This document shows, piece by piece, positions 7,147 to 20,005 of a stretch of 20,442 nt of DNA. The notes below the pieces were generated by a model. The model was not told the origin of the DNA, made no database searches, and was given only the letters and a program-made list of their open reading frames with translations. Every line of letters starts with the position of its first letter. Within the stretch, counting starts at the first letter, position 1. The stretch is from a virus. Made by a program: the position numbers and the translations under genes. The stretch covers positions 1-20,442 of IMG/VR virus record IMGVR_UViG_3300011258_000117; one strand, 5' to 3'.

Positions 7147-7794
7147 TTAGATAGTCCTAAAGATCATCTCTTCTGGATGCTTTGCTGCGTCAATAGCAAT
7201 AGCGTCTGATAGGTACTTGTCAGCAATAGCAAAGTATTCAGCAGTAGAAGTACCACCTGTCTCACCACGCTCACGAGCCAATAAAGCTACTGCAAGGTGA
7301 ATCACAGGCTTTGATGGAACAAGAAGAACGTCTGCATTGTTAGACAAATCTGCTTGTCTTTTTATAACATCAAATCGTAAACTGTACACGCCGTCAGGCT
7401 TAGGGTTAACAAGTACCTGAGTGTCTCCGTTAGCGTCTAGACCGTGGTAAGTGTAGTACTGAGGAGCGCCAGAGGTTTCATTAGATATGTACAAACGGTT
7501 GTTAAACCAGTCTTTTGTCTGGTAGCTAAAGAAACAGTCTTGAGTATCATTAAGCGCAGACATGACTTTTACGTTGTCACCACAGCCTGCTAGCGAGTAA
7601 AGGTTGTCTCCTTCTACGGTTTCAATAACAAGAGTAGTGCGTAATGCAGACCAATCAGAAGCCTCTTCAACAATGGTCTTAGCGTCGTTAATAAAGTCAC
7701 CAGCCATCTTAGAGTAGGTGCTTTCGTTAACACTGTTAACTTCTTCTTCACGCAAACGGCGCAACACGTTGTTCATTATGTTTAAATATGTCAT
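7147..7794 (-). CDS. Head-to-tail adaptor protein, 215 aa (gp4/gp11-like, putative)
   Basis: The length (215 aa) and an all-helical N-terminus (MTYLNIMNNVLRRLREEEVN, then FINDAKTIVEEASDWSALR) match portal-bound adaptor proteins of short-tailed phages. In that family helices pack under the portal ring and a beta region contacts the nozzle. A middle beta segment contains GAPQYYTYHGLDANGDTQVL. A C-terminal helical part (LAVALLARERGETGGTSTAEYFAIADKYLSDAIA) follows, with the usual 'R-x-E-x-G-G' turn before the last helix. ATG 7794 overlaps the TGA of the preceding gene (ATGA), and the next gene begins one base after its stop. Its pairing with the nozzle-type gene supports the call. Confidence 0.65.
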   Translation of the reverse strand: MTYLNIMNNVLRRLREEEVNSVNESTYSKMAGDFINDAKTIVEEASDWSALRTTLVIETVEGDNLYSLAGCGDNVKVMSALNDTQDCFFSYQTKDWFNNRLYISNETSGAPQYYTYHGLDANGDTQVLVNPKPDGVYSLRFDVIKRQADLSNNADVLLVPSKPVIHLAVALLARERGETGGTSTAEYFAIADKYLSDAIAIDAAKHPEEMIFRTI

Positions 7795-10700
7795 ACTAAT
7801 GTTGCTCTCTTTAGTAATTCATCAAGATTTTTTTGAGCCAGTGATTCTTGAGGTCTTGTTAGCATACCAATGTCACCAACACCTTGATACCCTAGACCAC
7901 CAAATTGTTGTTTTTCAAAAGGTTTAATCTCAGGCTTCGTTAGCATAGCCATTTGTTGCTGCGCTAGTTGTTGCTGCTGTTGTCCAAGGCCGCCTAAGCC
8001 AGCACCTACTACTGCGCCTAACAAACCCACACCTTCTCCAAGCTGTCCTAAGCCTTGACCAATGCCGCCAAGCTCAGTACCAATACCTGCAACATCTGTC
8101 ATTAACCCGCCAACAGACTGCTCTAATCCAGCAAGTGCTTCGTTAGTTGCGCCAACAGCGGTGGTGACGTCTTCTGACGTTGCTAGCCCAGCATTAGCCA
8201 GAGCGGTATTGATGTCTTCAGGAGTTGTAAACCCTGCGTTGGCAATAGCAGTACCAACATCTTCTGGTGTTGCAAATCCAGCATTAGCAATAGCAGTACC
8301 AACATCTTCTGGTGTTGCGAACCCTGCATTCGCTAGTGCCGTACCTACATCTTCGGGTGTAGTAAAGCCAGCGTTAGCAATGGCGGTGCCTACGTCTTCA
8401 GGAGTAGCAAACCCAGCGTTGGCTAATGCAGTGCCTATGTCTTCAGGTGTAGCAAACCCTGCACTGGCTAAAGCAGTTCCTATGTCTGCTGGAGTAGCAA
8501 ACCCAGCGTTTGCAATAGCGTCAATTACATCTTCTGATGTAGCAAAAGGGTTTTCATCAAAGACAGACTGAACAATACCCCTTACTACTTCGGGATCTGC
8601 GTCTTGACCGTCTCTACCATCTCTGCCGTCAACCCCATCTACTCCATCAACACCGTCTCTTCCCGGAGCGCCGTCAACACCGTCGGTTCCATCCCGACCA
8701 TCAGTGCCCGGCTCTCCTTGTTCTCCTTGTTCTCCTTGTTCTCCTCTTTCTCCGGGAGCGCCATCAACACCATCAACACCATCTATGCCATCTATGCCAT
8801 CTATGCCATCTATGCCATCTACTCCGGGCGCTCCATCTATCCCATCTATCCCATCTATCCCATCAATTCCATCAATGCCGTCTATCCCGTCTTGTCCGGG
8901 AGCGCCATCTACTCCGTCTATTCCGTCAACACCGTCTCGGCCCGGATCTCCTTGCGGCCCTTGAATTGGAGCAGGAGCAGGAGCAGGCGCTGGTGCTGGT
9001 GCTGGTGCTGGTTCAGGCTCTGATAAATACTCAGGAAACAGTCCTGAAGTAATAGGAGTGTCTTCTTCTGGTGGCGCTATAGGCTGTGTACCAGTTTCGC
9101 CGGGTGTTTGTTGTTCGTCTGTAGTAAGCGGGTCTACAGGATCTACAGGATCTGGCTCAGGTGGTAACTCAGGCGTCTGAATTGGATCTTCTTCATACTC
9201 AAACGGGTCTACTTCTACGTCGGTCTCTAGTGGGGTTTCTGGAGCTTCCTGTACATCAACTAAGATGTCTCGAATCTCTGAAGAAACCTCACTTGTATCC
9301 ATAGGATCTAAAGAAGGGTCTGTAAACGTAGGAGGCGGAACAATTCTTTCGTTTGAAGGTGGTTCAAGGTTTAAAAGAGCGTCTTGGTCGAGACTAGTAT
9401 GGAAACCAGTAGTAGATTCTGACCCTGATACTAAAATGTAACCGCCGTCGCCTTCTGCTAAAATAAGATTATTTTCTACAAGGAGGTCACTAAGACCCTG
9501 CAAGTCACCGTCCTGCATCAATATGGCTATAGCTTCTGGAGGAAGGCCGTGAGCAGATACGCCAGTTGCTGTAGTCCATGCATTTTTGTCATTAACAAAC
9601 TGCTCAAGAATTTGCTCAGGTGTGGCGTCTGGACTGACGCCTACAGGGAATCCAGCGTCGTTGTAGTAAACACCGTTGATTAGTTCGTCGCCTTCAAATG
9701 GATTTGTTATCTGCGCCATAGGCTCAGGTTGTACGGTTGTGTCGTCAGTTAAGTCAGCCGTAGTGTCTGCAAGCTCAGAATCTGCGTCATCAACAGAGTT
9801 AGCCATAAAATCATCAACAGAAGGGCCTGTCGGTTCAGGTGACACTGCATAGGCATCTTCATAAATAGACTGAAGATTGCCTGATAAATCTCTTAGTTGA
9901 TTAGCAATTGCTTCGTTTTGTTGGTCAGCAATAGCGGCGTTAAGAGTGTCGTTCATGTTCGAGGTAATGTCCTCAAACGCCTCTTGGTTTAGGCCATCCC
10001 TAAGCTCTGCCTGCCTTCTAGCAAGCTCTTCCATTGCTTCAGGAGATGCTGTTGTGTTCTCTGCAATAAACTGTTGAATCGGCTCTAAAATAAAGTCAGC
10101 AAGCTCTCTAGCCCCAGCAAATAAACCAGACGAAACAATCTGATCCATGTCTAGCTCACCGTCAAACACTGCTTGGCGAATAGCTGTTTGACCCATTGCA
10201 TTTAGAACATTGTCTACTTCTTCAATGCCTGTAATGTCAGATAAATCTACATTAATAGCATCACTAATTGCCGGGCCGATAATGTCTGTTACTGCTTGAC
10301 CCAAACCAGCAGTAGCCGCAGTTTGAAGTAGTTGGTCAAAATCAATAGAGCCAGTAGTAATAGCCTGCGTTATAGCATTGCTAACAACAGCAGAGCCAAC
10401 GCCACCCAAAGCTGGAGCCAACGCACCGCCAGACATGATGCCAATAGCGGTAACAATGCCCATCTTTACAAAGTCAGCAAGGCCAGCGTGGTCTTCGTCT
10501 ACAACTTTTACATACGCAGAGCCATTCCATGCAAACCTGTCGCCGGAGTTACTGTATACAACAGGGTTAACACCATACTTCTGTAGTAATGCTTGGTTAG
10601 CTTCAGAATTCAACCAGTTGTTGTAAGCACCTTGCTGTGTGCTTGTTTGTTGTCTACGTAGATTTTCTAGGTTTTGACCGGGGTCGCTAGGGTCAATAGT

Positions 10701-11177
10701 AAGATCAGCGTCACCCTCAAGGATCATCTCTTGATCTTCGCTAAACCCAGCATCAGCTTCAGCCCAGTTGCCTGTGTCGTAGTCACCAGACTGAATTAAC
10801 TGCTCACGCTCAGTCATGTAAGCAAGGTAGTTATCAAACGTACCAAATACTTCGGGAAGTCTGTTTACCTTGTCACTTTCAAAGTAGTCACGTAGCTCAC
10901 TAACTGTTAACTGTTGTACTTCGCCTTCTTGACCATAAAGATAGTTCTGCTGTGCGCCTCCTCTTTCCCTGCCCTCAACAAATGTAAAGGTCATTTCAGC
11001 AGGGGTTTCTGGTGCAGGAGCAGGAGTAGGATCATCAACAACAATAGGGGCTTGCTTTGTAGGCTCGCCTTTAACATCGCCTGTTGGGCTTATTGGTTGC
11101 CCTGTGGTCTCGTCAAAAGTAGGAGTACCGCCTGCGTACATTGTGTCAGTTAGCATTCCTTTAGAAGTTTTAGCCAT
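7791..11177 (-). CDS. 1128-aa modular virion protein with collagen-like and 15-residue repeats
   Basis: ATG 11177 follows a GGAAGAA site. The order of parts is clear. Residues 1-65 are Pro/Thr-rich. Residues 65-230 are acidic with an aromatic-rich stretch. Residues 235-310 form a Gly/Ala hydrophobic glycine-zipper-like segment, and 310-450 are helical. Residues 450-735 are acidic and Pro-rich, ending in an (Ala-Pro) run at 722-737. Residues 740-860 are about 40 collagen-like Gly-x-y triplets dominated by GID and GVD. Residues 875-1004 are eight or so 15-residue units of the type ANAGFATPEDVGTAI. A Gly/Gln-rich tail ends with two copies of a 'GMLT/AMLTKP'-like motif. Such proteins are normally trimeric rods on the virion. 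Its place between the holin cassette and adaptor suggests a tail appendage or internal protein. I cannot name a family for the whole protein. Confidence 0.75.
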   Translation of the reverse strand: MAKTSKGMLTDTMYAGGTPTFDETTGQPISPTGDVKGEPTKQAPIVVDDPTPAPAPETPAEMTFTFVEGRERGGAQQNYLYGQEGEVQQLTVSELRDYFESDKVNRLPEVFGTFDNYLAYMTEREQLIQSGDYDTGNWAEADAGFSEDQEMILEGDADLTIDPSDPGQNLENLRRQQTSTQQGAYNNWLNSEANQALLQKYGVNPVVYSNSGDRFAWNGSAYVKVVDEDHAGLADFVKMGIVTAIGIMSGGALAPALGGVGSAVVSNAITQAITTGSIDFDQLLQTAATAGLGQAVTDIIGPAISDAINVDLSDITGIEEVDNVLNAMGQTAIRQAVFDGELDMDQIVSSGLFAGARELADFILEPIQQFIAENTTASPEAMEELARRQAELRDGLNQEAFEDITSNMNDTLNAAIADQQNEAIANQLRDLSGNLQSIYEDAYAVSPEPTGPSVDDFMANSVDDADSELADTTADLTDDTTVQPEPMAQITNPFEGDELINGVYYNDAGFPVGVSPDATPEQILEQFVNDKNAWTTATGVSAHGLPPEAIAILMQDGDLQGLSDLLVENNLILAEGDGGYILVSGSESTTGFHTSLDQDALLNLEPPSNERIVPPPTFTDPSLDPMDTSEVSSEIRDILVDVQEAPETPLETDVEVDPFEYEEDPIQTPELPPEPDPVDPVDPLTTDEQQTPGETGTQPIAPPEEDTPITSGLFPEYLSEPEPAPAPAPAPAPAPAPIQGPQGDPGRDGVDGIDGVDGAPGQDGIDGIDGIDGIDGIDGIDGAPGVDGIDGIDGIDGIDGVDGVDGAPGERGEQGEQGEQGEPGTDGRDGTDGVDGAPGRDGVDGVDGVDGRDGRDGQDADPEVVRGIVQSVFDENPFATSEDVIDAIANAGFATPADIGTALASAGFATPEDIGTALANAGFATPEDVGTAIANAGFTTPEDVGTALANAGFATPEDVGTAIANAGFATPEDVGTAIANAGFTTPEDINTALANAGLATSEDVTTAVGATNEALAGLEQSVGGLMTDVAGIGTELGGIGQGLGQLGEGVGLLGAVVGAGLGGLGQQQQQLAQQQMAMLTKPEIKPFEKQQFGGLGYQGVGDIGMLTRPQESLAQKNLDELLKRATLV
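8166..8558 (-). repeat. Tandem 45-bp coding repeats (15-residue units)
   Basis: About eight or nine consecutive 45-bp units encode variants of TPEDVGTAIANAGFA. Protein identity between units is very high, but the codons differ widely (for example Ala, Thr and Val codons change freely from unit to unit). This shows either old duplication with selection on the protein, or selection against identical DNA repeats. Confidence 0.85.
8598..8960 (-). repeat. Collagen-like Gly-x-y coding repeat with perfect 9-bp tandem copies
   Basis: The region encodes about 40 Gly-x-y triplets. Within it are short perfect arrays of a 9-bp unit: four copies of ccatctatg at 8779-8814 and three of ccatctatc at 8833-8859. 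A triplet-multiple unit lets the array expand or contract without breaking the frame. Confidence 0.9.
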
Positions 11178-15353: not shown

Positions 15354-16298
15354 TTAGGCTGGGACAGCCAGAATGAAACCAGCTTCTGGACGGTATGCTT
15401 GGACACCGTAGAGGCAGTCAGCAGTGTACAGCGTTGAGAGGTACTCCTGCTTGTACTGAGTCTGTGAACGTACAGACATTTGCTCTGCAAGGACAACAGC
15501 GTCACGGTGGAACAACAAAGCAGCGCGCTTGCCTGAAGCAATAGTTGCACAGTTGTTAGACACGTATACGTCTACACCGTAGAGGTTACCGATGAGGCCA
15601 GACTGAACGCCTTGACCAGATACGAAGTCAGAAGACACGTAGCGGTCGATACCCATGATTGAGTTACGCGCAGAAGGAGGAATAACAAGGCAACGATCTT
15701 CCATAGGTACGTTGTTGTCATCAAGCTTCTGGATCATGTCACGGAAGAATCCGTCGCTGAACTCAGTGTTAGCTGGGAGTGCTTGTCCAGTAAACGCAGT
15801 AGTAGTGCCGTTGTTGTTGAAGAAAGCAGCACTGTTCTGGTAGCTAGTAGCAGTTGGAGACAGAGTCATTGTTCCGTCACCGAAGCCAGTAGCAACAGCG
15901 TGAAGATCAGTGTCGATCTTAGTAGCAAGAGCATAACCAGCATCTTCAGTGTAGAACTGACGGAGGCTGTTAAGTGCTTGTACTTCTACGATGTCTTCAA
16001 TAAGACGTGAGTATTCAAAGTGACGGTTAACGTCTACTTGGATTTCGCTTTCAGTGTTAGCAATAATGTTAACAGCAGCGTTCTCAGCCTTGACACTTGC
16101 GTCAGCACGAGTAGGCTTAGGGATGTGGAGCTTGTCGCCCTTCTTGCCTGTCATGCCAAGCTTCTTTACAAGAGGAACCATCTTGAGGTTCTTCTGGTAA
16201 GCAGCAATGATCTCATCGCTCCAGATTTCTGGGATGAAAGTTCCTGCTTCAGTTTTGCCGGTAATTCCGGTTGCGCCGGGATATGGTACAGTAGCCAT
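15354..16298 (-). CDS. Major capsid protein, 314 aa
   Basis: The length and content fit HK97-fold major capsid proteins of marine short-tailed phages. An N-terminal arm begins MATVPYPGATGITGKTEAGT. It is followed by FIPEIWSDEIIAAYQKNLKM and the strand KKGDKLHIPKPTR. A helix-rich core contains SRLIEDIVEVQALNSLRQFY and DAGYALATKIDTDLHA. The peripheral domain is around RCLVIPPSARNSIMG, and the C-terminus runs DCLYGVQAYRPEAGFILAVP. It assembles the icosahedral shell around the scaffold and portal. AGGAG six bases before ATG 16298, the scaffold gene directly upstream and a strong terminator directly downstream fit the most abundant virion protein. The N-terminus suggests no large prodomain, consistent with a separate scaffold gene. 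Confidence 0.9.
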   Translation of the reverse strand: MATVPYPGATGITGKTEAGTFIPEIWSDEIIAAYQKNLKMVPLVKKLGMTGKKGDKLHIPKPTRADASVKAENAAVNIIANTESEIQVDVNRHFEYSRLIEDIVEVQALNSLRQFYTEDAGYALATKIDTDLHAVATGFGDGTMTLSPTATSYQNSAAFFNNNGTTTAFTGQALPANTEFSDGFFRDMIQKLDDNNVPMEDRCLVIPPSARNSIMGIDRYVSSDFVSGQGVQSGLIGNLYGVDVYVSNNCATIASGKRAALLFHRDAVVLAEQMSVRSQTQYKQEYLSTLYTADCLYGVQAYRPEAGFILAVPA

Positions 16299-16312: not shown

Positions 16313-17113
16313 TTATTTTACACGACCCTCTGCGTATGCTGTCAGTATCTCTTCTGACAAAGATTGGTAACGCTCGGGGTCTGTTCTCATTAGTTTAATA
16401 ATGTCGGCCCTGCGATATACTTTTTTACGTGTCCCTTCAGCACTGCCTCGTGCATTACCTGTATTAGCTGCCTTGAGTGTCTGCTTACGTGCCTGTTTTT
16501 CAACCTTGGCAGTCTGCTGTGCTACTGTTTTACGTTCTTTCCAGAGTGTAAACAATTCGTCAGCAGATTCAGCGTCGTACTGTTGGTCAGCCGCTACAAA
16601 TAACTGAGTCCTAATCTTTGAAGCTTTAATCCATTCAGCAAACTTAGGATCACCAAGAATTTGCTGCATGTCTGGATGTTTGTTGTTTAGAGTAGCCAAA
16701 GCAGATTGTTTCTTGTAGTCTGCTGTGTACTGCTCTGCTTCACGTATCTTAGGATGATTCTCAATTGCACGATTTACTGCACCTTGAGGATCTGTAAAAT
16801 AGTCTATATCGTCTTCAGGCTCAACATATTGTGGTTGAGGTGCTGATTGTGTTTGACTACCAATGTAGTCATCCACGACTTTACGAAGTTCGCCCACTTC
16901 AGAAGACTGACGACCTAAAAGCTTCTCAGCTTCTTGGTGCATCTTAACGATGTCTTCTAAAGACTTACCTTGGTACTTATCTGGTAAGCTTGACTCTTCT
17001 ACTTGAGGTTGCTCAACTTCTGCTTCTTGTTGAATCTCGTTAACTTCGTTGGTTTCGATCTCGTCCACATTTTCCTCTTCAGGTTGTGGATCTACAATCA
17101 TTGCTCGTGACAT
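16313..17113 (-). CDS. Head scaffolding protein, 266 aa
   Basis: The protein has the layout of podovirus scaffolds. An acidic Glu/Asn/Gln-rich N-terminus (residues 10-42) leads to the conserved SLPDKYQGKSLEDIVKMHQE (42-61) and a heptad-type helix AEKLLGRQSSEVGELRKVVD. A Gln/Pro linker and DIDYFTDPQGAVNRAIENHP (103-121) follow. The end is basic and helical, with YRRADIIKLMRTDPERYQ (234-250) and a final Arg-Val-Lys. The basic end is expected to bind the coat protein's inner surface, and the scaffold leaves before DNA packaging. GGAG lies seven bases before ATG 17113. It directly precedes the major capsid gene. The motif order and position make this a confident call. Confidence 0.85.
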   Translation of the reverse strand: MSRAMIVDPQPEEENVDEIETNEVNEIQQEAEVEQPQVEESSLPDKYQGKSLEDIVKMHQEAEKLLGRQSSEVGELRKVVDDYIGSQTQSAPQPQYVEPEDDIDYFTDPQGAVNRAIENHPKIREAEQYTADYKKQSALATLNNKHPDMQQILGDPKFAEWIKASKIRTQLFVAADQQYDAESADELFTLWKERKTVAQQTAKVEKQARKQTLKAANTGNARGSAEGTRKKVYRRADIIKLMRTDPERYQSLSEEILTAYAEGRVK

Positions 17114-17149: not shown

Positions 17150-17362
17150 TTATTTTCTACCTGCTTTTTCGTGTTCCCTAACCCATTTCATATGCGCTCC
17201 GGGGAATGAACCATCGGAACCGTTAAGGTGGAAAGACGGGGCAGATACCATTCTTGTAGAAGTACTGCCACAGATTTTGCACCTACTTTCTGTGACAGTG
17301 GACTTTACAAATTCTTCAGTGACGTGACCGTTAGTACAACGGAAGTCATAGATTTTATACAC
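17150..17362 (-). CDS. Small FmdB-like zinc-ribbon protein, 70 aa
   Basis: GTG at 17362 overlaps the last 8 nt of the previous gene; there is no later in-frame start before the conserved N-terminus, so I keep GTG. The N-terminus YKIYDFRCTNGH resembles the FmdB family start. The metal-binding residues visible are C9 and H13 in the first knuckle and C28-x2-C31 in the second (RCKICGS). The second Cys of the usual first CxxC is missing. The C-terminal SAPSFHLNGSDGSFPGAHMK is a phage-type extension also known in such proteins. The role is unknown: it may be a small regulator or a zinc-stabilised accessory of capsid assembly. It sits inside the capsid transcription unit, just before the scaffold. 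Confidence 0.7.
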   Translation of the reverse strand: MYKIYDFRCTNGHVTEEFVKSTVTESRCKICGSTSTRMVSAPSFHLNGSDGSFPGAHMKWVREHEKAGRK

Positions 17363-17609
17363 TTACAGGGCCTTCTTCTTCTACTTCTGCTTGCTCTCTG
17401 GCAGCTTCTATAGTACCCTGAAGATTAATTACAGTAGCTAAAGCAGCAACTTGACCTTTGCGATAGAAGAGTTCTTCTACGTCTTTTACGGACTGTATGT
17501 CTGCTAACTGTTGTGCATTATTAGATAACTCTTGTAAGAGTTGTTTGAAACCTTCGTGATTGAAGAGTTCGTTGTAGTTGTCGAAGTAGGTTTCAAGCTC
17601 AGGAGTCAT
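17355..17609 (-). CDS. 84-aa helical protein, first gene of the capsid unit, function unknown
   Basis: It begins MTPELETYFDNYNELFNHEG and continues with a long amphipathic helical region ending in an acidic tail (AREQAEVEEEG). The 'ETYFDNY.ELF..EGFKQL' start and 'VEELFYRKGQVAALATVINL' middle are familiar from small proteins just upstream of capsid-scaffold genes in marine phages. No function is known to me. An AGAGGA site is about six bases before ATG 17609, and the sigma-70 promoter at 17642-17670 gives it a short leader. Being first behind this promoter, it is probably made in amount with the scaffold and capsid proteins, suggesting an assembly or early-head role. Confidence 0.65.
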   Translation of the reverse strand: MTPELETYFDNYNELFNHEGFKQLLQELSNNAQQLADIQSVKDVEELFYRKGQVAALATVINLQGTIEAAREQAEVEEEGPVSV

Positions 17610-17641: not shown

Positions 17642-17670
17642 ATTATAGCATACTTTTGTACAGATGTCAA
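17642..17670 (-). promoter_or_regulatory. Consensus sigma-70 promoter of the capsid unit
   Basis: On the minus strand TTGACA (17670-17665) and TATAAT (17647-17642) are separated by exactly 17 bases, with TGC just before the -10, an extended -10. All twelve hexamer bases match consensus. The start site is expected near 17635, 25 nt upstream of the first gene. The -35 hexamer includes the TGA stop of the upstream gene (17669-17667). Confidence 0.9.
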
Positions 17671-17939
17671 GCTTTTCTTGTAGATTTCCTACGTTTACCT
17701 GAAGCTGTTACTGCATGTTTAATTTTAGCAGGCCCTGTCTTACGTCTAGCAGAAGAAGCTTTCTCTGCCTTGGTCATCTTAGCAGCAACTGCTTTAGGTC
17801 TACAGGAGGGGTAGGGACGCTTAGACTCACCTTTCTTAGCAGACTTACGTCCACAGGGCTTACCTGTCTTAACGTCTACCCACTCCTCCTTAAACCATTT
17901 CTTAAGGGCTGCGCCTTTCTTACTTTTTCTTACGGCCAC
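17667..17939 (-). CDS. Basic Lys/Arg-rich protein, 90 aa, function unknown
   Basis: The start is GTG 17939; GGGGT lies upstream. The protein is strongly basic and has a recognisable core: ALKKWFKEEWVDVKTGKPCG, then ESKRPYPSCRPKAVAAKMTK and ASSARRKTGPAKIKHAV. The 'KWFKEEWVD...G.PCGR...RPYP.CRP' pattern is a family found in marine phages and some large viruses. I cannot give it a secure function. Two Cys in CG and SC contexts might bind metal. High positive charge suggests nucleic-acid contact, for example DNA condensation or packaging, but this is inference. Its stop lies inside the -35 of the capsid promoter, and its start overlaps the upstream 53-aa gene by 20 nt. Confidence 0.7.
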   Translation of the reverse strand: MAVRKSKKGAALKKWFKEEWVDVKTGKPCGRKSAKKGESKRPYPSCRPKAVAAKMTKAEKASSARRKTGPAKIKHAVTASGKRRKSTRKA

Positions 17940-18081
17940 TTTTGTTACCCCAGTTCTTAGCGCCGACTTTGCGGCACTTGGCTACAGCACCAGAGGCGTA
18001 TGCAGAAGGCCAGACCTTGTATCTGGACTTGACCTTTTTTGCACAAGCGTCGTTAGCCTTCTTAGTTTTAGCTTTAGGCAT
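17920..18081 (-). CDS. Basic microprotein, 53 aa, function unknown
   Basis: It runs from ATG 18081 to TAA at 17920, overlapping the next gene by 20 nt. AAGGGG eight bases upstream is a ribosome binding site. The core YKVWPSAYASGAVAKCRKVG followed by KNWGNKSG is a pattern I recall from small proteins in cyanophage and other marine phage genomes, often next to other Lys-rich microproteins. It has two Cys (residues 13 and 36). The charge is strongly positive. No function is known to me; nucleic-acid binding is a reasonable guess. Confidence 0.7.
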   Translation of the reverse strand: MPKAKTKKANDACAKKVKSRYKVWPSAYASGAVAKCRKVGAKNWGNKSGRKKK

Positions 18082-18083
18082 CT

Positions 18084-18143
18084 TTAGTACCCCTTGGGTT
18101 TGCTCTTGCCTTTCTTTTTGCGTTTACCTGTACAGTTTGGCAT
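18084..18143 (-). CDS. 19-aa basic peptide gene (putative)
   Basis: This is a very short open frame, ATG 18143 to TAA 18084, with an AAGGA site seven bases upstream, and it ends 2 nt before the next start. The peptide begins MPNCTGKRKK and is half Lys/Arg. It fills the space between two real-looking genes almost completely and keeps the same style of spacing as its neighbours. That supports translation, but peptides this short cannot be proven from sequence. Confidence 0.5.
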   Translation of the reverse strand: MPNCTGKRKKKGKSKPKGY

Positions 18144-18153
18144 AGTAGTTTCC

Positions 18154-18300
18154 TTACTTTTTGTGGGCTTTTTGGACTGCAAAGTTAGCTGACTTAGATG
18201 CACCTTTGTGTGGCTTGTAGCCGTCTGCGGGGTCTTTCATCAGCTTGTGTTCTTTACCGCTTTTCATCCAGTGGTAACCTTTAGGCGCATTAACCTTCAC
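18154..18300 (-). CDS. Basic microprotein, 48 aa, function unknown
   Basis: GTG 18300 is preceded by AAGGAG at six bases, the best ribosome binding site nearby. There is no in-frame ATG until residue 12, which would remove the conserved start, so I choose GTG. The protein begins KVNAPKGYHWMKSGKEHKLM and ends with GASKSANFAVQKAHKK. 'PKGYHWMK.GKEHKLMKDP' is a familiar opening of small phage proteins near portal and capsid genes. The charge is strongly positive with several His and aromatic residues. The function is unknown; a virion or DNA-binding role is possible. Confidence 0.7.
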   Translation of the reverse strand: MKVNAPKGYHWMKSGKEHKLMKDPADGYKPHKGASKSANFAVQKAHKK

Positions 18301-18302
18301 AG

Positions 18303-18536
18303 TTAACTCCTTACTTGATAGTAGTCTTCAATTGTACACCGGACTTGTCGCCCTTGGTGATTCATGTATATTGGTGCGCCTACTCTAAGCCACCGTAGTG
18401 ATACTTGAGTTACGTCTTCAGATACTGCACAGTCCGGGACTACTACGTACTGCTGATCTGCTTTCTCAACGAGAATCTTGGTGTTAGCTGATGCCTGTAA
18501 CGACAGCAGCATTACCGCTACTAATAACTTTCGCAT
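18303..18536 (-). CDS. Exported small protein with Sec signal peptide, 77 aa, function unknown
   Basis: Residues 1-17 are a classic Sec signal: Met-Arg-Lys, a hydrophobic core LLVAVMLLSLQ, and Ala-Ser-Ala before the predicted cleavage at Asn18. There is no lipobox Cys, so the 60-residue mature form should be soluble in the periplasm or outside. The mature part is beta-rich (KILVEKADQQYVVVPDCA) with two cysteines, C36 and C67, that could form a disulfide. AGGAG six bases upstream of ATG 18536 gives strong initiation. It sits among basic microproteins in the late block, an unusual place. It could be a cell-surface modifier, exclusion factor or lysis aid; nothing specific is recognised. Confidence 0.7.
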   Translation of the reverse strand: MRKLLVAVMLLSLQASANTKILVEKADQQYVVVPDCAVSEDVTQVSLRWLRVGAPIYMNHQGRQVRCTIEDYYQVRS

Positions 18537-18583: not shown

Positions 18584-18850
18584 TTACCACTTCTTACAAG
18601 ACCAGTACCTCGCCGTGAGTTTGCTGGGTGGGTTTGTGTCACACTTGTGACGTGCTCTAAACGACTTCCGTCGTGCAGGCTGGTCTTTCTTGATAGTCAT
18701 CTTGGCATCGCCAAAACGAATAGTCTTAGTCTTGTCACCTTCTTTGGCTACTACTACAAACTTCTTAGTAGGGTGACTAGGCGTCCTTTTTGGTTTGTTG
18801 TACCCGCTTACGCCCGCTCGTGCTAGTTTTGGGTCCTTGGACTTTGGCAT
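18584..18850 (-). CDS. Conserved basic phage protein, 88 aa (DUF6321-like, from memory)
   Basis: The N-terminus SKDPKLARAGVSGYNKPKRT followed by PSHPTKKFVVVAKEGDKTK and TIRFGDAKMT is a strongly conserved pattern in marine phage proteins that I associate with DUF6321. The label should be verified. The C-terminal half normally ends 'RKSFKARH...AAYWA..VKW'; here it is RRKSFRARHKCDTNPPS and a Cys-containing RYWSCKKW. GAGGA eight bases before ATG 18850 supports the start. Its first 74 nt overlap the end of the preceding coiled-coil gene in another frame. The function is unknown; a basic, compact protein in the structural block may be a minor virion component. Confidence 0.75.
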   Translation of the reverse strand: MPKSKDPKLARAGVSGYNKPKRTPSHPTKKFVVVAKEGDKTKTIRFGDAKMTIKKDQPARRKSFRARHKCDTNPPSKLTARYWSCKKW

Positions 18851-18968: not shown

Positions 18969-19316
18969 TTAGTTATAAGGGAACCATTCTCCAAACTTAC
19001 GGACATATATCAGTATAACCGTAGTGTCTGGTGTGTTGATTGTTACCGTTGTTCCGCCGTACTCATCTATGTTGTACTGGGCGATGTTAAAGAAAGAAGA
19101 AGAAGACGTAATGTTAATGTCACCTATGATCTTTACGGTGTTGGCTGTAGTCAGCTTTACCATTACCGTTTCACGATCTTTAGGTGTTGGGTTTAACACA
19201 ATGTCTACGTCAGAACTGCACCGTAGTATCTCAGTCCCAGAAGTAGTATGACTACCTGAAACCTCATACGCCTGCGCTATACCTAAGTCTGCTCTGGATT
19301 GTGGTATGTAACTCAT
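18969..19316 (-). CDS. Stalkless paralogue of the collagen-protein head domain, 115 aa
   Basis: I choose ATG 19316, which shares a base with the preceding TAA (TAATG). An upstream in-frame GTG at 19331 has no spaced ribosome binding site. The whole protein aligns by eye with the C-terminal 115 residues of the gene just upstream: both share SRADL, HTT-x-G-(S/T)-EIL, DRETV-x-V, I-x-G-(D/E)-INI, a 'YNI(N/D)EYG' motif and DTT....Y...F.EW at the end. It is therefore a tandem duplicate without the collagen stalk. The beta-rich, Asn/Thr-rich sequence suggests a trimeric surface domain. It could co-assemble with the longer protein or form its own appendage. Function is not established. Confidence 0.75.
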   Translation of the reverse strand: MSYIPQSRADLGIAQAYEVSGSHTTSGTEILRCSSDVDIVLNPTPKDRETVMVKLTTANTVKIIGDINITSSSSFFNIAQYNIDEYGGTTVTINTPDTTVILIYVRKFGEWFPYN

Positions 19317-20005
19317 TAGATTGCCAACCACTCTTTGAATTCTTGGATGTATACCAAGTGCAATGTTGTGTCGTCTTGTTCAACAATAATACTACGAGCG
19401 CCATACTCATTAATGTTGTACTTAGCTACGTCGTAGTAAGACATGTTGACAATGTTAATTTCACCCACAATGTCTATTCGATCATCAGTACGGCAGTTGA
19501 CAATAACTGTCTCACGATCCTGCGGATGTTCTCTTAAGTTAATAACAACACCAGAGGTAACCTTTAGGATCTCAGATCCACCTGTTGTGTGGTTAGCAGT
19601 GATAATCCTAGCGTTAGCATTCTTAAGATCTGCACGACTAGCCATGCTACCCATAGAGATGTTGTACACATTGGGTGCCTGAGCCTCGTTAATGTCCTTC
19701 ACAGAGCCTGCGTCTACTTCCTCACCGTTGGTAAGGGTCAACACTAAATGCCCGTCAAAGTCCACTGTGGCGTCCTGAACGCCTACTCCGTCTTCCCCAT
19801 CAGAGCCGTCTGCTCCGTCCTTACCGTCAACACCATCCTTGCCGTCTTTACCTACACCAGTATCACCCTTGTCACCTTTAGGTCCTTTTTCACCTGTAGG
19901 TCCGGGATCGCCTTTGTCACCCTTTTCCCCACGGATAGCTTCTACTGCCTGTATCTTAGACAGTAGTTTGTCGTAGAGGGCTGTAAGTTTTAAGTCCACG
20001 TTCAT
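19316..20005 (-). CDS. Collagen-stalk virion protein with C-terminal beta domain, 229 aa
   Basis: The parts are an N-terminal helix (residues 3-24), then about 17 collagen-like Gly-x-y triplets at 26-75 (GEKGDKGDPGPTGEKGPKGD and later GKDGADGSDG). A short beta linker of the type 'DATVDFDGHLVLTLTNGEE' spans 78-96, and a C-terminal domain starts near 113 with NISMGSMASRADLK. Collagen-like phage proteins are normally trimeric and form whiskers, fibre shafts or capsid spikes. ATG 20005 overlaps the stop of the probable portal gene (ATGA) with no clear ribosome binding site, so translation is probably coupled. Location right after the portal suggests a head- or neck-attached fibre, by inference. 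Confidence 0.8.
   Translation of the reverse strand: MNVDLKLTALYDKLLSKIQAVEAIRGEKGDKGDPGPTGEKGPKGDKGDTGVGKDGKDGVDGKDGADGSDGEDGVGVQDATVDFDGHLVLTLTNGEEVDAGSVKDINEAQAPNVYNISMGSMASRADLKNANARIITANHTTGGSEILKVTSGVVINLREHPQDRETVIVNCRTDDRIDIVGEINIVNMSYYDVAKYNINEYGARSIIVEQDDTTLHLVYIQEFKEWLAI

Follow-up and report, generated by a model that had tools for sequence, protein, structure and literature searches.

What do the short, strongly basic open frames between the portal side and the capsid unit of this phage encode, and is a frame of only 19 codons a gene at all? The stretch of DNA analysed, referred to here as the window, comprises positions 1–20,442 of the IMG/VR record IMGVR_UViG_3300011258_000117 (20,442 nucleotides). 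An initial annotation, made from the letters alone, had described a run of four Lys/Arg-rich frames of 48, 19, 53 and 90 aa at 17667–18300, tightly spaced or overlapping, three of them with Cys and all with good ribosome binding sites (RBSs), and had suggested that the products condense DNA, take up space inside the capsid or target host nucleic acid. All four frames were recovered, on the minus strand. M1 (18154..18300, −) is an open frame for a 48-aa basic protein (MKVNAPKGYHWMKSGK...HKK) with a GTG start and the RBS taaggag; M2 (18084..18143, −) is a 19-codon gene (MPNCTGKRKKKGKSKPKGY) with an ATG start, whose clear RBS (taagga) was found as described; M3 (17920..18081, −) encodes a 53-aa basic module of the Cys type (KANDACAKKVKSRYKVWPSAYASGAVAKCRKVGAKNWGNK; ATG start, RBS aagggg, phrog_727 at 1.5e-17); and M4 (17667..17939, −) encodes a 90-aa basic module (LKKWFKEEWVDVKTGKPCGR...YPSCRP) with ggggt before its GTG start and a match to Pfam DUF5872. 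M1 and M2 are separated by 10 nt and M2 and M3 by 2 nt, M3 and M4 overlap by 20 nt, and the Cys counts from M1 to M4 are 0, 1, 2 and 2, as the description of spacing and Cys content had it. Good RBSs, on the other hand, were seen for M1 and M2 only, that of M3 being fair and that of M4 weak; because of this weak RBS and the overlap, translation of M4 is probably coupled to that of M3.

The basic run consists of five genes and not four, since upstream it is joined by M5 (18584..18850, −), an 88-aa basic protein (SGYNKPKRTP...RRKSFRARH...YWSCKKW) matching phrog_7595 (3.6e-27). The computed pI values were 10.1, 10.5, 10.7, 11.2 and 10.7 for M1 to M5, respectively, with a joint net charge of about +80, whereas every other window protein computed had a pI of 9.3 or less. 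Between M5 and M1 lies an optional gene whose 77-aa product has a signal-like start (MRKLLVAVMLLSLQASA; 18303..18536, −), present in 25 loci of L002–L157, about one sixth of those examined. On the 3' side, M4 is followed by the genes of an 84-aa acidic protein (17355–17609, −; a neighbour kept in 134 loci), a 70-aa zinc-ribbon protein directly ahead of the scaffold gene (17150–17362, −; kept in 130 loci; Zn_ribbon_8 at 29.1 bits, under the Pfam cut-off), a scaffold-like 266-aa protein (16313–17113, −; weak match only, phrog_19777 at 0.0096) and the major capsid protein (15354–16298, −; phrog_267 at 1.1e-50).

Scans of IMG/VR gave at least 593 relatives of M1, at least 571 of M4 and more than 570 of M3, and M5 was found in 67 phage records; homologues of M1 also occurred in Roseobacter phage CRP-901 and in Pelagibacter phages HTVC103P, HTVC104P and HTVC106P. 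Across relatives, pN/pS was 0.129 for M1, 0.098 for M3, 0.080 for M4 and 0.035 for M5, compared with 0.233 for the capsid gene. A counterpart of M2, i.e. a short basic frame, was present in all 59 loci bearing both M1 and M3 (36 distinct neighbourhoods, 22 distinct sequences), with GGAG-type RBSs in the sites listed. In its MPN/HC family (12 variants), variable columns numbered 3, 0 and 16 at codon positions 1, 2 and 3, respectively, with 20 columns each (Fisher 2.4e-8, pN/pS 0.051), which shows that codon-level selection can reveal a phage gene of only 19 codons; outside this family the slot held other short basic peptides of 16–34 aa. The gene order in relatives was portal, a 60-aa coiled-coil-like gene (cc60), M5, (77 aa), M1, M2, M3, M4, 84 aa, zinc ribbon, scaffold and capsid, so that the position first assigned to the run, between portal side and capsid unit, recurs; in loci L002–L157 some members were absent or swapped for others. 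The 138 M4 loci represent 102 distinct neighbourhoods, some contigs occurring twice, and the alignment of M4 relatives showed invariant L12, W15, F16, W20, C29, C46, P48 and K67. Even in the far more distant phage C72C1 the order is kept, M5 being followed by a basic frame of 20 aa, then by an M3-type gene and M4, and several cassette genes are separate ORFs in the cultured phages CRP-2, CRP-7, CRP-901, HTVC106P and C72C1. Among genome contigs, a lone relative was found, in a Gammaproteobacteria MAG.

M1–M5, including the 19-codon M2, are thus genuine genes under purifying selection, since the many relatives, the conserved order and the strong codon-level selection are not expected of chance. 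That they are merely chance open frames in lysine-rich sequence has practically no probability left: M2 does lie under the usual gene-calling limits, but the codon-position pattern, the pN/pS values and the conserved order and start sites speak against it, and no other point in its favour remains. The selection check proposed in the initial annotation therefore came out positive for all frames, and the loss of conservation or frameshifts in relatives that would count against genes were looked for and not seen.

As for kinship, M4 is a member of DUF5872 (PF19197) as judged from its Pfam score (27.7 bits, cut-off 27.5; positions 49–90). Window M3 gave no match to DUF5872 in the Pfam search; the slot is occupied by two types of M3, the Cys type, as in the window, and a DUF5872 type, and the M3-type gene of C72C1 matched DUF5872 positions 1–39. 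Since M4 matches the second part of the family and the C72C1 gene the first, M3 and M4 are, by these profile matches, split halves of DUF5872, which elsewhere are joined in one chain and in the window are separate, overlapping genes. Of the 80 fetched loci with a DUF5872-type M3, 77 also had M4; the two were encoded separately in 64 of these and fused in one ORF in the other 13. M5 resembled Tlr6F/DUF5754 (PF19058) over most of the domain, at E 0.0063 and 17.0 bits, below the cut-off of 27.4, and just one of seven M5 relatives matched it. This family is conserved among phages as well as polinton-like and giant viruses (PMC4642659, PMC12220804), and M5's likeness to it is no more than a weak lead. 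In the open-access literature searched, one paper mentions DUF5872 and none mentions DUF6321, and no report in it of a head location for DUF5872, DUF6321 or Tlr6F-like families was found.

Structure prediction by AlphaFold was poor for M4 alone (pLDDT 61); for a fused M4–M3 homologue (L298) it reached pLDDT 82.5, with about 95 in the M3 part, and gave a strand-helix-helix-strand arrangement. Among solved structures, M4 had no match by sequence, the fused M4–M3 profile hit only bS20, non-significantly (E 0.72), and the fused model gave a best Foldseek E of 3.7 and a VIA-align Z of 2.3; a new fold does not follow from this lack of a match. The top hits among predicted viral structures were uncharacterised phage proteins; lower in the ranking came the S-SCSM1 virion protein (E 0.036) and, from a giant alga virus, a DUF5872 protein (E 0.28).

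The Cys-type M3 was found embedded in large proteins of T4-like marine phages and cyanophages, where the T4-GC119/phrog_727 proteins of cyanomyoviruses, which also carry DUF6321, contain M3 and M4-like modules as the cassette does, but as a single large mosaic with linkers instead of separate peptides. In S-SM1, the T4-GC119 gene, bearing M3, lies directly 3' of the small terminase gene. When M3-bearing ORFs of at least 120 aa were searched with the M4 profile, 34 of 52 had a match elsewhere in the ORF at 15 bits or more, compared with 0 of 1040 local shuffles. Some mosaic proteins additionally bore DUF6321 or M5 (M5 and M3 share one ORF in L201), and in L301 a single ORF encodes a head maturation protease (phrog_9427, 1.8e-50; Peptidase_S78 above the cut-off) followed by DUF6321, M4 and M3. 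A further small module, CWxGYxxKG...NC (the CW module), was observed in the mosaic proteins of L208, L219, L235, L240 and L243, often with an [ILV]xE motif on each side.

Published virion proteomes place fused relatives in the particle. In CsCl-purified S-CREM2 virions (PMC10665884, Table 3), 7 unique peptides came from ORF160, which consists of an M4-like module (M4 profile 1.2e-7) and then M3, and 4 from ORF137, which has DUF6321 at its C-terminal end; these are few peptides, and the authors remark that CsCl-purified virions can contain contaminants. ORF29 of S-SCSM1 (517 aa; M4, M3 and DUF6321) bears the record label ‘virion protein’, which, to judge from PMC9602691, presumably stems from mass spectrometry. 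On the other hand, the DUF6321 gene of S-SZBM1 (gene 192) was undetected in the virion, the main text of PMC3037559 does not name T4-GC119 as a virion protein, and M1 and M2 had no relative among known virion proteins; the literature searched yielded no virion proteomics of the window phage or of any phage with separate micro-genes. One candidate was discarded: gene 195 of S-SZBM1, an abundant small virion protein whose gene lies next to that of the small terminase, has a sequence without any cassette module. Separately, residues 17–70 of S-CREM2 ORF160 (L243 1643–2536) matched phrog_696, labelled major head protein (4.8e-10), and this stretch is possibly a shared targeting region.

The T4 protease gp21 cleaves Alt at ITE and LTE (PMC5694885), and similar motifs were sought in the linkers of the mosaic proteins. 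An [ILV]xE motif occurred within 15 aa before the module in 35 of 44 distinct M3 linkers, 15 of 17 CW linkers and 12 of 14 M4 linkers, compared with 11/43, 0/17 and 1/14, respectively, one window further upstream. Among non-redundant M3 linkers, 22 of 28 had the motif (2000 shuffles: mean 7.8, maximum 15), and neither [ILV]xD nor the reversed motif was enriched in M3 linkers. The reversed motif was enriched before the CW module, indicating that this control is not clean everywhere, and before M4 modules alone the count of [IL]xE was weak, only the wider [ILV]xE being clear. After the CW module [ILV]xE occurred again in 13 of 17 cases, as expected if the following piece is also cut.

Some mosaic ORFs begin with MKTFQEFILE|A, MKTFSQFLLE|A or MKSFKEFIKE|A, matching the start of T4 IPII and IPIII, MKTYQEFIAE|A, in which residues 4 and 7 are reported to direct targeting, while processing requires residues 8 and 10 (PMC9026906). 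Of the 52 mosaic ORFs, only about 10 have such a capsid-targeting-like start, several of these being near-identical, and a few other genes have it as well; it is absent from M1–M5 of the window. When records were searched for prohead proteases of the S77 and S78 families, the two covered, 8 of the 10 with fused modules had a match (one of these, an S78 match in G014, below the cut-off) and 0 of the 13 with separate genes (Fisher 9e-5), a comparison that is confounded by phylogeny. Neither the window record nor 8 relatives of 33–37 kb, which may be incomplete, had an S77/S78 match.

Since relatives of two of the genes occur in larger virion proteins, capsid-internal, DNA-neutralising peptides are the most likely product of the cassette, and we consider it fairly probable that it supplies small basic peptides, made from separate micro-genes, that lie inside the phage head with the DNA. 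Of the three functions first suggested for the run, the capsid interior is the one that gained independent support, from virion proteomes, protease-like motifs, targeting starts and the protease fusion. In the scheme we propose, the peptides would move into the procapsid while the head is being built and remain inside with the DNA, where they would neutralise or organise the packaged genome, and some may leave with it at ejection. DNA condensation is plausible from their charge, and, by charge only, the acidic scaffold-like 266-aa protein (pI 4.9) and the 84-aa protein (pI 4.2) are candidate partners for head entry. A phage without a prohead protease would have to make its peptides separately, whereas with the protease one cut polyprotein would be possible. 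Phages lacking a recognisable S77/S78 protease, such as that of the window, would thus use one micro-gene per peptide in a tight, partly overlapping operon, and T4-like marine phages would carry the modules as polyproteins, some with a capsid-targeting start, which the prohead protease probably cuts at hydrophobic-x-Glu sites directly ahead of the modules.

The closest known parallel is T4, in which IPI, IPII and IPIII are small basic head proteins that bind DNA at low salt and are supposed to neutralise it (PMC9026906); M1–M5 are likewise small and basic (pI 10.1–11.2). The T4 proteins share their capsid-targeting start and [IL]xE processing motif with some T4-like relatives of the cassette, whereas M1–M5 have no such start and their phage no S77/S78 match, and a further difference is that the cassette is made up of several micro-genes, which form a single operon with partial overlap. 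IPI, IPII and IPIII gave no significant match to the module profiles. By analogy, then, the cassette would rather probably work like the T4 internal head proteins, while membership of their family is not supported by sequence.

It could be argued that the peptides are packaged as T4 IPI is, and after ejection act on host nucleases or polymerase in host takeover or counter-defence. In T4, internal proteins leave the head by ejection and IPI blocks a restriction enzyme (PMC9026906), the M2 slot holds very different sequences that are always basic, as would fit fast-changing effectors, and a PBECR5-domain nuclease gene adjoins the cassette in CRP-901. M3, M4 and M5, however, are strongly conserved over phages of SAR11, Roseobacter and cyanobacteria, unlike a host-specific inhibitor, so we regard such effectors as unlikely. 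Packaging or scaffolding accessories, active solely while the head is assembled or the DNA packaged and not retained in the virion, would suit genes that adjoin the terminase in CRP-2, CRP-7 and T4-like cyanophages and the scaffold and capsid genes in the window; because module-bearing proteins appear in virion proteomes (S-CREM2, and S-SCSM1 by its record label), this role seems improbable. Late intracellular proteins that bind RNA or the nucleoid, with no head role, are more improbable again: the high charge and the non-significant bS20 match of the fused M4–M3 profile would agree with them, but not the fusion to a head maturation protease, the capsid-targeting starts, the protease-like sites or the virion detection of fused forms.

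The head-internal reading offers a mechanism that ties micro-genes to polyproteins, and gives DUF5872 and DUF6321, two unexplained families, a testable place, the interior of the phage head. More tentatively, and with the odds somewhat against it, marine phages might share an exchangeable kit of basic peptides for DNA packing, the phage equivalent of protamines, which would reach the head either from a micro-gene operon or as a protease-cut polyprotein; DUF5872, DUF6321 and perhaps the Tlr6F-like families of giant viruses would belong to this kit.

Even in cultured isolates, some cassette members escape annotation. In CRP-901 (OQ401623), three of them, the homologues of M3, M4 and M1 (L239 3603–4126), are without annotation; the nuclease gene directly adjoining them, with the PBECR5 domain, is gp66 (L239 4388–5947). 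In the window itself, two further genes encode collagen-like repeats: one at 7791–11177 (−), which is tail-fibre-like and additionally contains ANAGFATPEDVGTA repeats, and one at 19316–20005 (−), which lies between the portal gene and the 60-aa gene and was present in only 12 of the examined loci.
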